Assembly (NCBI RefSeq): GCF_028807635.1
Contig: NZ_JARBAX010000001.1
Location: 186,001 to 250,000, forward strand
Origin: Streptomyces spiramyceticus
GTDB lineage: Bacteria > Actinomycetota > Actinomycetes > Streptomycetales > Streptomycetaceae
Direction of reading: 5' to 3'
DNA length: 64,000 nucleotides
Part shown: positions 57,926 through 62,719 of the stretch, in pieces
How the letters are laid out: each line of letters starts with the position of its first letter
How positions within the stretch are numbered: the first letter of the stretch is position 1
Position numbers and translations under genes: made by a program
Notes under the pieces: generated by a model
The model's input: only the letters and a program-made list of their open reading frames with translations
Databases searched by the model: none
Told to the model about the DNA's origin: nothing

Positions 57926-57993
57926 GTGACACGCTTTGCCGAACTTTGCGCCCCGAAAACATGAGCCGTCCCGCTCCGGGGTACCCGGGTTGC

Positions 57994-58362
57994 ATGAACG
58001 TGTCCAGCGCAATGGAGAGCACCACGGTCACGGGGCTCGCGGCCGACAACCACTACGTGATCGGCATCGTGCCGTTCATCGTGGGCCTGGTAGTGGTGGC
58101 CATGCTGATCGGTGCCGTCTGGTGGGGCCTGGTCCGCCGACGGCGGGAGCCACCTCCGCCGCGCCCGGAGGAGCAGCCGAAGCCCCCGGATCACCGCACT
58201 CACATCGACGAGTACGGTCCGCACTCCTCCACGGATTTCCCCAAGGACGGGAGGCGGCTCATGCCGTACGAGCTGAAGGACCACGGCAATGAGGTCCTTC
58301 GCCCACTGGCCCCGCCGCCGCCGGACGAGGAGCAGCACCCCGCTGAAGGGTCGCGCGACTGA
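57994..58362 (+). CDS. Single-span membrane protein, DUF6479-like
   Basis: This 122-residue protein has one membrane helix (IVPFIVGLVVVAMLIGAVWW near 23-42) followed by an Arg patch, a Pro/Glu-rich stretch and the PEEQPKPPDHRTHIDEYG segment that I recall in Streptomyces DUF6479 proteins. Starts at 57961 and 58012 are also possible. Function unknown. Confidence 0.72.
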   Translation: MNVSSAMESTTVTGLAADNHYVIGIVPFIVGLVVVAMLIGAVWWGLVRRRREPPPPRPEEQPKPPDHRTHIDEYGPHSSTDFPKDGRRLMPYELKDHGNEVLRPLAPPPPDEEQHPAEGSRD

Positions 58363-58505: not shown

Positions 58506-58679
58506 CTATTTCCCGGTCTTCTTGACCCGGCCGGTCGTCTTCTCGGCGACCTCTTGAGCCTTGCCCGCCAGTTCTTCGCCGCGGCCCTCGGCCTGCATGC
58601 TCTTGTCACCCATGGCCTTGCCGGCGGCTTCCTTGATCTTGCCCTTGGCCTGCTTGGCCTTCGCCTTCGCCTTGCTCAT
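58506..58679 (-). CDS. CsbD-family small stress protein
   Basis: This 57-residue Lys/Ala/Glu-rich helical protein has the AKGKIKEAAGKAMGDKSMQA core and EGRGEELAGKAQEV second half typical of CsbD proteins, which are general-stress proteins of unknown action. It is convergent with the DUF6479-like gene. Confidence 0.88.
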   Translation of the reverse strand: MSKAKAKAKQAKGKIKEAAGKAMGDKSMQAEGRGEELAGKAQEVAEKTTGRVKKTGK

Positions 58680-58921: not shown

Positions 58922-59107
58922 CACTCTCACCCTTGCGTGGTGCTCGCGTCGTCCCTGGCGTCCTTTTGTCGCGCGCCGGACAACAGGCGCGTACCCAGCT
59001 TCCGGACCGGAACTCGGACCGGTTTGAGAATATTGCCCTGTTTGCGCGTCGGCGATCGGGGTACAGATTGCTGAACCGCATGGGCGTCAGCGATGGAGGC
59101 GTCAGCG

Positions 59108-59455
59108 ATGGACGGAGCTGGGCTTTCGGATCACGAGCAGCGGATCCTTGCCGAAATCGAAGGCAAACTGCAGGGCGACGACCAGACCCTGGACCGCCGG
59201 TTGCGGACCATGCGCAGCCGACATCTTCCGCACATACCGCCAGTGCGAATCAGGGCGCGTGGCCTGGCCATTTGCCTCATGGGAGCAATATCAGCGGCGC
59301 TGCTGATCGCAGCGTCGACCACCGTGAAACCGGCCTTCCTCTGGGCCTTCGCAGCCGCATGGATCATCACTTTCGTCAGCGCGGTGCCCGTATTCGGCCG
59401 CTGGTGCCTACGCTGGAGGAAGAAACCGCCTCGGGGCGGCGGCGAACGTAGCTGA
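59108..59455 (+). CDS. DUF3040 family membrane protein
   Basis: This 115-residue protein starts with LSDHEQRILAEIEGKL, the DUF3040 hallmark, then has two membrane helices (GLAICLMGAISAALLIAAST and FLWAFAAAWIITFVSAVPVF) and a basic tail. ATG 59108 is preferred over ATG 59093 because GGAGG lies 7 bases upstream. Confidence 0.85.
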   Translation: MDGAGLSDHEQRILAEIEGKLQGDDQTLDRRLRTMRSRHLPHIPPVRIRARGLAICLMGAISAALLIAASTTVKPAFLWAFAAAWIITFVSAVPVFGRWCLRWRKKPPRGGGERS

Positions 59456-59483: not shown

Positions 59484-59906
59484 ATGAAGACTTCTTTCGC
59501 AGATCCGGATCATGGCACGCTCGCGTTCGAGCTTCTCGGCATGACGCTGCAGGTCGAAGGCAACGGCGAGCAAGTTGTCCCCTTGCCCTCGCCCGGTATT
59601 CCAGTCGAGCTGAAGGAGGGGGCGGAAATCCGCATCGGGCTGACTTTCCGCCTCGGCAGAGCGGTCGAAGGACTCAAATTCGTCGATGTGCGCAAACGCC
59701 ACGGAGTCGTGGTGAGCATGTCCGAGACGATGCTGGGCTGTTACCGGCCGGGCGGCCCGTACGACGTGATCGTCCCGCCCGAGCGGCTGCCGACCGGCCA
59801 TCTCGCCCGCGACACGTACGAAGTGACGGGCACCTTCATCGACGCCGACGGCAACATCCTGGGAGACGAGACCCACTCCTTCAGGATCACGAAGGAGTGG
59901 GCCTGA
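59484..59906 (+). CDS. RhoGDI-fold protein (Rho GDP-dissociation inhibitor-like)
   Basis: The 140 residues match the immunoglobulin-like domain of eukaryotic RhoGDI along their length: LKEGAEIRIGLTFRLGR (43-59; human RhoGDI1 has LKEGVEYRIKISFRVNR), then GLKFVDVRKRHG (63-74), the METxxG-like MSETMLGCYRP (79-89), VPPERLPTGHLARDTY (97-112; human has TPVEEAPKGMLARGSY) and FRITKEW at the end. The N-terminal regulatory arm that grips the GTPase is absent. In eukaryotes this domain holds the isoprenyl tail of Rho GTPases; the partner here is unknown. It follows the DUF3040 gene by 28 bases. Confidence 0.8.
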   Translation: MKTSFADPDHGTLAFELLGMTLQVEGNGEQVVPLPSPGIPVELKEGAEIRIGLTFRLGRAVEGLKFVDVRKRHGVVVSMSETMLGCYRPGGPYDVIVPPERLPTGHLARDTYEVTGTFIDADGNILGDETHSFRITKEWA

Positions 59907-59949: not shown

Positions 59950-60303
59950 TCACATGTGCCTGTTCGCGTAGTACTGCTCGATCAGATGCATGAACGGCAG
60001 GTCCTCTTCCGCGTACTTGCCGCTCTCAAGGTCGGGTGAGGCCTTGATCTCGGCCTTCGTGGCCGACAGGTGAACCGTCTCGTTCTCGACATCTATCCGC
60101 GACACCAGACCCGCCGGCAGCAGTACACGCCTGCCGAAAATCCACGGACCTGTGTCGACGACGATGTACGAGCGGCCGACGTCCTCGGAGTGCTTGTCGA
60201 TCTTCCCGATGTGCCCGTCCGATGCTTCGGCCTTGAACCCGACCAGCTCCGCTCCCGGCACGTGTCCCGATGTGTCTCCGTACTCCCAGATGGGGGCGCC
60301 CAT
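59950..60303 (-). CDS. PRC-barrel domain protein
   Basis: This 117-residue protein has a PRC-barrel-like core: ELVGFKAEASDGHIGKIDKH near 19-38, then GRSYIVVDTGPWIFGRRVLLPAG near 43-65 and a final strand VENETVHLSATKAEI. Such domains often occur in small stress-related actinobacterial proteins. Function unknown. It is convergent with the RhoGDI-like gene. Confidence 0.82.
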   Translation of the reverse strand: MGAPIWEYGDTSGHVPGAELVGFKAEASDGHIGKIDKHSEDVGRSYIVVDTGPWIFGRRVLLPAGLVSRIDVENETVHLSATKAEIKASPDLESGKYAEEDLPFMHLIEQYYANRHM

Positions 60304-60330: not shown

Positions 60331-60501
60331 CTACCAGCGGTACCAGCGTGTCCTTCGGCCACCGATGGCCGGACCGCGCAGCAGGAAGCCCAGCAGCCAG
60401 ACGATCAGAACCGCGAGCGCGAGGTACCAGAGGAATTCTGCGGCGAATCCGATCCCGAAGAGGATCAGGACCAGCAGGAGCACCAGCAAGAGCGGGACCA
60501 T
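60331..60501 (-). CDS. Small hydrophobic membrane protein
   Basis: 56 residues, nearly all hydrophobic up to residue 42 (two membrane passes), with a basic Trp/Arg tail RRTRWYRW. GAGGAG lies 8 bases before ATG 60501. It is 27 bases upstream of the PRC-barrel gene, so probably in the same operon. Confidence 0.72.
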   Translation of the reverse strand: MVPLLLVLLLVLILFGIGFAAEFLWYLALAVLIVWLLGFLLRGPAIGGRRTRWYRW

Positions 60502-60709
60502 GTCGATCATCTCCTCGACCCTGTGCCCATGTCCCAGCTTTGCGGATGCCCAAAATTGCGTAATTTACGCATGGTCCGGCCGTACCTCCCCCGGCGGATC
60601 GCGGGGACGCCATCCGGGCGACTGACCGCTGCGTCAGCGCAGCAGGACGCGACGGAAGGCAGGCGGATGTGGATGCTGGGGCAACCGCCCCCGAGGAAAG
60701 GTCTCCGGC

Positions 60710-60985
60710 ATGCTGGAACGCAGCCGTCGCAAGCAGCGCACCAAGATTACGTTCGTCATTCCGGCGGACCAACCCTGCGGCCAGGTCAGCGTCGTGGGCG
60801 ATTTCAACGACTGGCAGCCCGGCACCCATCCGTTCGTCTCGCGCCCGGACGGCACCCGGAGCGTGAGCGTGACACTTCCGTCCGAACAGCGGTACGGCTT
60901 CCGCTACCTCGCCCACGGCGACTACTGGTTCGACGAAGAGCATGCCGATGACCGCGACGGCCAGAACAGCATCCTGCACACCTGA
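60710..60985 (+). CDS. Stand-alone CBM48 (isoamylase N-terminal/AMPK-beta-like) domain protein
   Basis: The 91 residues consist of one carbohydrate-binding module: VSVVGDFNDWQPGTHPF near 27-43 and YGFRYLAHGDYWFDEEHA near 61-78, the glycogen-binding pattern. There is no catalytic part. GAGGAAAGG precedes the ATG. It could guide partners to glycogen. Confidence 0.88.
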   Translation: MLERSRRKQRTKITFVIPADQPCGQVSVVGDFNDWQPGTHPFVSRPDGTRSVSVTLPSEQRYGFRYLAHGDYWFDEEHADDRDGQNSILHT

Positions 60986-61134: not shown

Positions 61135-62142
61135 ATGGCCCGTCCAGTGTGGAGCGGTGCGCTGACGTTCGGTTTGGTGACCTTGCCCGTGCAGATGTTC
61201 ACGGCGACGGAGAGCCACACCGTCCACTTCCACCAGTTGCAGCGCGGAACGTCGGACCGGGTACGCAACAAGCGGGTGAATGAACGCACTGGCGACGAAG
61301 TCCCGTTGGACGAGATCGTCAAGGGCTTCGACGCGGGCGACGAGTACGTCGTCGTCGAGCCGGGCGAGCTGGAGGACATCGCACCGGGGCGCTCCAAGGC
61401 ACTGGAGATCACCGGATTCGTCGACCTGGAGCAGGTCGAGCCGATCTTCTTCGACAAGACGTACTACCTCGGCCCCAAGGGCAAGGAGTACGCCAAGGTC
61501 TATGCCCTGATGGAGAAGGCGATGGCCCACACGGGAAAGGCCGGAATCGCCACGTTCGTCATGCGCAACCACCAGTACCTCGTGGCCGTGAAGGCGGAGG
61601 CCGGACTACTGACGCTGCACACCCTGCACTGGGCCGACGAGATCCGCGACCCGCGCAAGGAGATCGGCGACCTGCCGGCAGAGGCCGCCGTCACCGACCG
61701 CGAGCTGAAGATGGCCGAGCAGCTGGTCGAGACGCTCAGCATCGACTGGAAGCCGGAAGAGTTCCACGACACGTTCCAGGAGCAGGTGGCCAAGCTCATC
61801 GAGGCCAAGCGCACCGGCGAGACGGTCGAGAAGGCAGAACCGCCGGCCGCGTCCACGAATGTGGTCGACCTGATGGAGGCCCTGCGGGCCAGCGTCGACC
61901 GGGCCAAGAGTCCCAAGGACCGCCGCGGGCAGAAGGCCGGCGGCGCGGCGAAGACCGCTGCAAGGAGCACGGCGAGGTCCAAGAGGCCGAGCAAGGCCTC
62001 GTCCTTCGATTCCCTGACCAAGGCGGAGCTCTACGAGCGCGCCACAGAGGCCGGGATTCCCGGCCGGTCCTCCATGAGCCGGGAGGACCTCATCGAGGCC
62101 CTGCGCGGCGCACGGGGGCGACGCAGGGCCGACGCGTCCTGA
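61135..62142 (+). CDS. ku: Ku protein for non-homologous end joining
   Basis: This 335-residue protein has the Ku core, starting with RPVWSGALTFGLVTLPVQM; YLGPKGKEYAKVYALMEKAM near 110-130 and IATFVMRNHQYLVAVKAEAG near 140 are typical. A Lys/Arg/Ala-rich linker (about 260-295) leads to a C-terminal SAP/HeH-like helix pair (SLTKAELYERATEAGIPGRS). It binds DNA ends and recruits LigD; no ligD is in the window. AGGAGGAGG lies upstream; ATG 61135 is chosen. Confidence 0.93.
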   Translation: MARPVWSGALTFGLVTLPVQMFTATESHTVHFHQLQRGTSDRVRNKRVNERTGDEVPLDEIVKGFDAGDEYVVVEPGELEDIAPGRSKALEITGFVDLEQVEPIFFDKTYYLGPKGKEYAKVYALMEKAMAHTGKAGIATFVMRNHQYLVAVKAEAGLLTLHTLHWADEIRDPRKEIGDLPAEAAVTDRELKMAEQLVETLSIDWKPEEFHDTFQEQVAKLIEAKRTGETVEKAEPPAASTNVVDLMEALRASVDRAKSPKDRRGQKAGGAAKTAARSTARSKRPSKASSFDSLTKAELYERATEAGIPGRSSMSREDLIEALRGARGRRRADAS

Positions 62143-62260: not shown

Positions 62261-62719
62261 ATGAGCACGGTGAAGGAGTCAGTGGAGGTCGAGGTTCCCG
62301 TCCACACCGCCTACAACCAGTGGACGCAGTTCGAGGAGTTCCCGAACTTCATGGAGGGAGTCGAGGAGGTCAGGCAGCTCGACGACGTCCACAACCACTG
62401 GACCACCAAAATCGGTGGCGTACGGCGGGAGTTCGACACCGAGATCATCGATCAGCTTCCCGACGAGCGGATCGCCTGGCGCACCACCAGCGGCGACACC
62501 AAGCAGAAGGGGCTGGTCAGCTTCCAGCGCCTGGACGACACGCACACGCGGGTGGAGCTCGTGATGGACGTCGAGTCCGGCGGGGTCGCGGAGAAGACCG
62601 CCGACATGACGGGAATGATCGATCGTCGCGTCAAGGGCGACATGCGGCGCTTCAAGGAGTACATCGAGCACCGCGGCGGCGAATCCGGAGCCTGGCGGGG
62701 CCGCATCAAGCCCGGCTGA
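62261..62719 (+). CDS. SRPBCC-family (polyketide cyclase-like) protein
   Basis: This 152-residue START-like fold protein has VEVEVPVHTAYNQWTQFEEF at the start, FPNFMEGVEEVRQ near 27, an HNHWTTKIGG strand and a long C-terminal helix RVKGDMRRFKEYIEHRGG. Ligand unknown; many Streptomyces carry such proteins outside biosynthetic clusters. Confidence 0.88.
   Translation: MSTVKESVEVEVPVHTAYNQWTQFEEFPNFMEGVEEVRQLDDVHNHWTTKIGGVRREFDTEIIDQLPDERIAWRTTSGDTKQKGLVSFQRLDDTHTRVELVMDVESGGVAEKTADMTGMIDRRVKGDMRRFKEYIEHRGGESGAWRGRIKPG

Follow-up and report, generated by a model that had tools for sequence, protein, structure and literature searches.

The gene at the center of this analysis (59484..59906, plus strand) lies in a window of 64,000 nucleotides, by which we mean the whole stretch of Streptomyces spiramyceticus DNA that was analyzed. 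It encodes a RhoGDI-domain protein of 140 amino acids (Pfam PF02115) without an N-terminal arm, belonging to a sequence lineage that we denote lineage B. Its start lies 28 bp behind the end of a DUF3040 gene on the same strand (59093..59455; 120 amino acids; PF11239, 39.6 bits, cut-off 24.7), and the two genes probably share one transcript. The assignment of the DUF3040 gene rests on its Pfam profile match; the simple GC-position gene caller overlooks it. Upstream of this putative transcription unit, a sigma-B-type promoter-like site, GTTTGC-N13-GGGTAC (59040..59064, plus strand), was found as a sequence match ending 28 bp before the DUF3040 start. Its score was 13.86 with a matrix built from 24 mapped promoters of S. 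coelicolor SigB homologues, taken from the promoter table of PMC8346170; the median of these known promoters is 12.9, and one of 269 control genes scored equally high.

The gene company at this locus comprises CsbD, PRC-like, SRPBCC and DUF6479 genes in addition to DUF3040. A DUF6479 gene (57946..58362, plus strand; 100 bits) and a gene for a CsbD-like stress protein of 57 amino acids (58506..58679, minus strand; PF05532, 58.6 bits, cut-off 40) are located on the upstream side. Convergent with the RhoGDI gene is a gene for a PRC-barrel-like protein of 117 amino acids (59950..60303, minus strand), with a PF05239 match of 16.2 bits that stays under the cut-off of 21.2. It is followed by a gene for a small hydrophobic protein of 59 amino acids without Pfam match (60331..60510, minus strand) and, further on, by an SRPBCC/polyketide-cyclase family gene (62261..62719, plus strand); the cluster of each of these two occurs at 8 of 32 RhoGDI loci. 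Two more plus-strand genes lie in between: positions 60710-60985 encode a stand-alone early-set-type domain of 91 amino acids (CBM_48/AMPK1_CBM-like, under both Pfam cut-offs), and positions 61147-62142 read by eye as a Ku-type end-joining gene with cluster members at three loci, including L053.

The initial annotation had recognized a RhoGDI-type immunoglobulin-like domain in a bacterium, and this observation is real. The PF02115 (Rho_GDI) profile matched the window protein with 68.2 bits against a cut-off of 26.5, its fold is the RhoGDI immunoglobulin-like beta-sandwich, and the nearest structural relatives in a fold comparison were RhoGDI, PDE6D and UNC119. By family and fold it is thus a RhoGDI-domain protein. 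P0030, a family member under the Pfam cut-off, likewise models as RhoGDI. Lineage B is one of three bacterial RhoGDI lineages found here; lineage A is fungal-like, and lineage C has a full-length, arm-bearing member. The absence of the GTPase-clamping N-terminal arm, also claimed in the initial annotation, was borne out throughout lineage B: the arm motif was detected in 0/45 lineage B and 0/5 lineage A proteins, compared with 96 of 98 fungal-type proteins. Of the features expected of a functional RhoGDI, both this arm and the patch that contacts the GTPase tail are absent from the window protein, and so we do not call it a GDI. Public records already label some members of these lineages “rho GDP-dissociation inhibitor”. 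Among the literature matches listed, none had a bacterial RhoGDI as the topic of its title or abstract.

To describe the contacts, human numbering was anchored on K113 of PDB mutant entries. In human RhoGDI, according to PMC8253491, Tyr110, Gln130, Asp140 and Tyr144 hydrogen-bond Arg186 of Cdc42 and Glu164 meets Arg187; the same source places Gln130 in the lining of the lipid pocket and proposes that isoprenyl binding is weakened where a polar residue replaces Ile177. The window protein has I, D, S, T and R at positions 110, 130, 140, 144 and 164, i.e., the polar tail patch is absent. Among the 45 lineage B proteins, position 110 holds V, I, F, L or C and never Y, no Asp occurs at position 140 among the residues seen in 44 of the 45 sequences, position 164 is R in 39/45, and G150 is replaced by R in all of them (45/45). 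Around the pocket, Q130 has become D (30/45) or E (8/45), T132 is R in 44/45 (V in 98/98 fungal-type proteins), W192 is E in 35/45 and W194 is H in 38/45; both pocket tryptophans are exchanged in this way, for Glu and His, in the window protein. Position 177 stays V, A, L or C, and the core remains hydrophobic at the positions of I112, I114, F116, L196 and I198. Strand alternation and the literature suggest that the side chains of 130 and 132, and those of 192 and 194, point into the pocket. In lineage B, a conserved charged mouth has apparently taken the place of the prenyl-lined one, around a core that stayed hydrophobic.

These replacements weigh on the earlier suggestion that the protein binds an isoprenoid or acyl chain directly. 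Such a protein would still be a lipid chaperone, solubilizing a bacterial isoprenoid (polyprenyl phosphate, carotenoid or hopanoid precursor) or an acyl chain under stress. The unchanged fold, the prenyl and acyl binding of its nearest structural relatives and the hydrophobic core fit this idea, as does the pocket of the other two lineages, which is better preserved than that of lineage B: position 194 is W in 5/5 lineage A and Y in 2/2 lineage C proteins. However, at each of positions 130, 132, 192 and 194, between 35 and 44 of the 45 lineage B sequences carry a charged residue or His, a poor fit to a prenyl chain, and the tail patch is lost in the window protein as well. We regard a persisting lipid chaperone as unlikely, though it deserves serious consideration.

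The normal clients of RhoGDI are prenylated Rho GTPases. A prenyltransferase-alpha (PPTA) profile found no match in six carrier genomes (0/6), in a search whose 14 controls included no eukaryote and whose sensitivity is thus unproven. The Ras profile gave one match per genome in six carrier genomes, and the match of the window genome reads as IF-2. The initial annotation had named a Ras-like conservon GTPase as possible partner, and roadblock genes were taken as the conservon marker. All nine carrier genomes searched contained 8-15 roadblock-domain matches, so conservons are probably present in them, as regulation of a CvnD-type GTPase would require. The distances speak against it: roadblock genes were 23-626 kb away from nine RhoGDI loci in eight genomes, none within 20 kb, and the nearest one in the window genome was at 154 kb, i.e., the window RhoGDI gene is not encoded together with CvnA-D. 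At a tenth RhoGDI locus (G573), no roadblock gene was found on the contig. Furthermore, arm and tail patch are missing, and 366 of 392 sampled Streptomyces genomes gave no RhoGDI match, while conservons are, to our knowledge, general in the genus. A role as conservon regulator is consequently very improbable.

Lineage B is a Streptomyces-centered family. When about 5.8 billion proteins were searched with its profile and the 7,995 candidates sharing most words were scored, at least 45 members were obtained; all 35 with an organism name came from Streptomyces, and 10 carried no name. Pfam searches were run on genome samples from Actinomycetota, Streptomycetaceae and Streptomyces, and the wider genome scan reaches close relatives only. 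RhoGDI carriers made up 26 of the 392 Streptomyces genomes, 20 of them over the cut-off, and 9 of 249 Streptomycetaceae genomes (in 2 of 17 genera; this sample overlaps the Streptomyces one), and the single carrier among 396 Actinomycetota genomes was the window's own genome. Six of 28 lineage B loci (L023-L028, identical to L050-L055) were under the Pfam cut-off. Two RhoGDI copies per genome were seen in G670 (L031 and L033) and G903 (L063 and L064); these are diverged lineage B pairs, and only L063 adjoins partner-switching genes. L059 (G886), with one in-frame stop, was excluded from the neighborhood and tree work. Neither plasmids, searched with the window protein and those of lineages A and C, nor phages, searched with the lineage A protein, yielded a match, and a scan of viral contigs returned 19 pattern matches with zero relatives. 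A candidate from Oscillospiraceae (L003) proved to be a chance hit within what, read by eye, is an MnmA gene, and was discarded.

Searching with the G573 protein, which is identical to P0046 from Streptomyces albipurpureus, we obtained 103 proteins: the five of lineage A (P0046, P0047, P0050, P0095 and P0107, four of them named Streptomyces) and 98 others, some without name; the named ones are all fungi, for the most part Basidiomycota. P0046 shares 41-59% identity with these 98 fungal-type proteins, and its best non-bacterial match (55%) is a basidiomycete RhoGDI. A one-residue insertion, AR-x-GSY, is present in 5/5 lineage A proteins, in 82/98 fungal-type proteins by the strict pattern, and in 0/45 of lineage B. 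The S. albipurpureus gene (L030:9211-9672, minus strand) adjoins an APH-fold gene recognized by Pfam and an apparent ABC transporter pair read by eye. Lineage C, which emerged from the Streptomycetaceae search, is represented by a full-length gene with N-terminal arm (L056/L061 in G973; L061:9225-9779, plus strand), which covers PF02115 profile positions 12-192 of 193 with 150.9 bits and lies on an 8.08 Mb contig, a Streptomyces chromosome, at 43 kb from its end; it is the most canonical bacterial RhoGDI copy that we saw. Its neighbors include DJ-1, DUF6131 and DUF6479 genes, and the latter (64.9 bits), about 6 kb away, belongs to a family also present in the window. The other lineage C gene (L057/L062 in G811, from another genus) lacks the arm, and its assembly is 7% contaminated.

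The patchy distribution could also be that of a neutral passenger of recent transfer, or of an assembly contaminant. Against this stand the megabase contigs carrying the genes (5.15 Mb for C1 of the window genome, 7.18 Mb in G764, 8.08 Mb in G973), GC3 values of 0.73-0.97 and dN/dS ratios of 0.13-0.49 in 12 lineage B pairs, which show lineage B to be under purifying selection; the lineage C pair reached 0.78, a value from two very divergent sequences, one of them in the contaminated assembly. We consider a passenger or contaminant hardly credible, the least probable of all explanations weighed here.

Trees were built on part of the rows (63, 60 and 36 sequences), with human as the only non-fungal eukaryote and two fungal rows (P0049, P0051) without organism name. 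All three joined lineage A with Basidiomycota in one clade (support 100/99-100), and lineage B did not group with the basidiomycete RhoGDIs. In topology tests, for which the clades were chosen after the trees had been seen, a single clade of A, B and C was rejected (p-AU 0.019), as was a clade of A and C (p-AU 0.033; 0.057 without B in the tree). Neither a clade of A and B (p = 0.245) nor a position of B inside the basidiomycete clade (p = 0.439) was rejected; B and C together (support 77/70) were neither shown nor rejected, and keeping all fungi together without A cost 22.3 log units, a borderline result (p-AU 0.062). These data point with good support to a fungus close to Basidiomycota as the source of lineage A, and with good support also to a different source for lineages B and C, for which a single common origin is weakly supported. 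A descent of lineage B from A by loss of the insertion was weighed, too; the tests did not reject it for A and B alone (p = 0.245) and rejected it for all three lineages (0.019). RhoGDI genes have likely entered Streptomyces from eukaryotes at least twice; the direction from eukaryote to bacterium is suggested for lineage A by its grouping with fungi, and for lineages B and C by their patchy bacterial spread.

Another possibility is that bacterial RhoGDIs, in particular those of the fungal-like lineage A and the arm-bearing protein of lineage C, are released or delivered and act on Rho GTPases of eukaryotic neighbors such as amoebae or fungi. Lineage A keeps Y110, D140, E164 and W194 in 5/5 proteins, L061 retains the arm, and the tested carrier genomes show no obvious client of their own. 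Yet no secretion signal was seen by eye, and there was no secretion-system gene among the five L030 and L061 neighbors scanned with Pfam, the others being read by eye. Moreover, lineage B, to which the window protein belongs, no longer has the GTPase contacts and is often found in the company of stress genes. Such a role is improbable.

Genes around 32 RhoGDI loci were called with the simple GC-position caller, and neighbor families were assigned via Pfam on examples. Recurrent neighbors were STAS, HATPase_c_2 (RsbW-like), SpoIIE phosphatase, sigma-70 regions 2-4 and a HAMP-HisKA-receiver hybrid kinase, followed by CsbD, SRPBCC, CBS, DJ-1/PfpI and cNMP-binding proteins. Compared with 16 arbitrary, position-unmatched stretches from carrier genomes, RsbW was found at 16/32 loci vs 2/16 controls, SpoIIE at 15/32 vs 0/16, STAS at 13/32 vs 1/16 and a sigma factor at 8/32 vs 1/16; the HAMP kinase (14/32 vs 5/16) is common in controls, too. 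For lineage B we considered 28 loci, leaving out L002 (near-identical to the window) and L030, L061 and L062 (lineages A and C). At 17 of these, at least two of the five partner-switching gene types lay within seven genes (controls 1/16), and 24 had at least one other stress gene type (controls 0/16); these contrasts overstate significance, because the gene types were picked from these same loci, many of which are orthologous to one another, and because the controls are unmatched; the counts serve as description, not as p-value. Most of the arrangement is displayed by three lineage B groups (L034, L035, L037-L040; L032, L036, L041, L063; L049, L051, L053). Neither gene set was found at L043, L046 and L064 (3/28), and the partner-switching set is missing at the window locus as well as at the lineage A and C loci.

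Across the family, the promoter signal is faint. The shift in matrix score was small for all 31 RhoGDI genes (p = 0.026), and for the 28 of lineage B alone p was 0.054, with 4/28 above the control 95% level; two of these four sites end at most 9 bp from the start codon, too close for a plausible promoter. Sigma-B-type sites were not in excess among 531 neighbor genes at RhoGDI loci (p = 0.94; 4.5% above the 95% level). Within 600 bp upstream of 28 RhoGDI genes, the strict sigma-B pattern occurred only in the window, L002 and L048, and we do not claim a family-wide sigma-B promoter; in the window and L002 it lies 419-420 bp upstream of RhoGDI, i.e., before DUF3040. Among other genes, 14/469 have the strict pattern within 200 bp. 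Because the signal elsewhere is weak, the assignment to a stress regulon is based on the window operon and the gene company, not on a family-wide promoter. Additionally, a block close to GCGGCGAAAGCTGGCGCA precedes the ATG just upstream of the RhoGDI start in L034, L035 and L038-L040; it is partly common to the window (GCCGAAAGCTGGC) and is perhaps a common translation or leader signal.

Our preferred explanation, to which we give an even chance, is that a eukaryote-derived RhoGDI domain was domesticated for stress physiology and took on a new ligand or partner. From operon and gene company we infer, with moderate support, that lineage B was drawn into a general-stress (sigma-B-type) program. 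In the window, the RhoGDI and DUF3040 genes would form one transcript driven by the sigma-B-type promoter, and at many other lineage B loci the RhoGDI gene lies near STAS, RsbW-like kinase, SpoIIE phosphatase, HAMP hybrid kinase or sigma-factor genes. The product may be a beta-sandwich protein of the cytosol, produced in response to osmotic or similar stress, that no longer clamps a prenylated GTPase; instead, the former mouth of the prenyl pocket, with its conserved Arg, His and acidic residues, might bind a polar ligand or a segment of a stress-machinery protein, which would thereby be sequestered or solubilized. The fuller account, with two to three eukaryotic RhoGDI acquisitions (one with arm) and one line wired into sigma-B partner switching, its pocket rebuilt as a charged one for the new ligand or partner, we rate at somewhat less than even. 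If true, a eukaryotic GTPase regulator has turned into a bacterial stress component. The carriers offer a testable case of a bacterium with a regulator whose usual clients, prenylated Rho GTPases, are apparently missing: Rho binding can be assayed directly with proteins of the arm-bearing lineage C and the fungal-like lineage A, and in lineage B the fold has apparently been re-used beside stress-signaling genes.

Compared with eukaryotic RhoGDI (human ARHGDIA/ARHGDIB), the window protein is alike in family, beta-sandwich and the core motifs, LKEG to G-x-Y and AR-x-x-Y. It differs in having no N-terminal clamp, in the replacement of all five contacts described in PMC8253491 and in Glu and His in place of pocket Trp 192 and 194. 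PDE6D and UNC119, its structural kin, are prenyl- and myristoyl-binding proteins. Basidiomycete RhoGDIs (Meripilus lineatus, Pisolithus spp.) are the nearest eukaryotic relatives found, and they are those of lineage A; lineage B groups apart and is devoid of the one-residue insertion. The histidine kinase OsaA, treated with OsaB, OsaC and sigma-B in osmotic stress in PMC10117811, resembles the hybrid kinase at RhoGDI loci in having a receiver domain. A precedent for a gene acquired from a fungus in osmotic stress is glxA of S. coelicolor, which according to PMC3543389 encodes a galactose-oxidase-like protein of probably fungal origin and is required for osmotic adaptation; its protein is unrelated to RhoGDI and its role independent of SigB. 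Finally, a table in PMC4917890 lists accessory proteins of the GDI type as unidentified in bacteria, and against this entry stand the RhoGDIs of Streptomyces, in three sequence lineages and apparently from repeated eukaryotic transfer.
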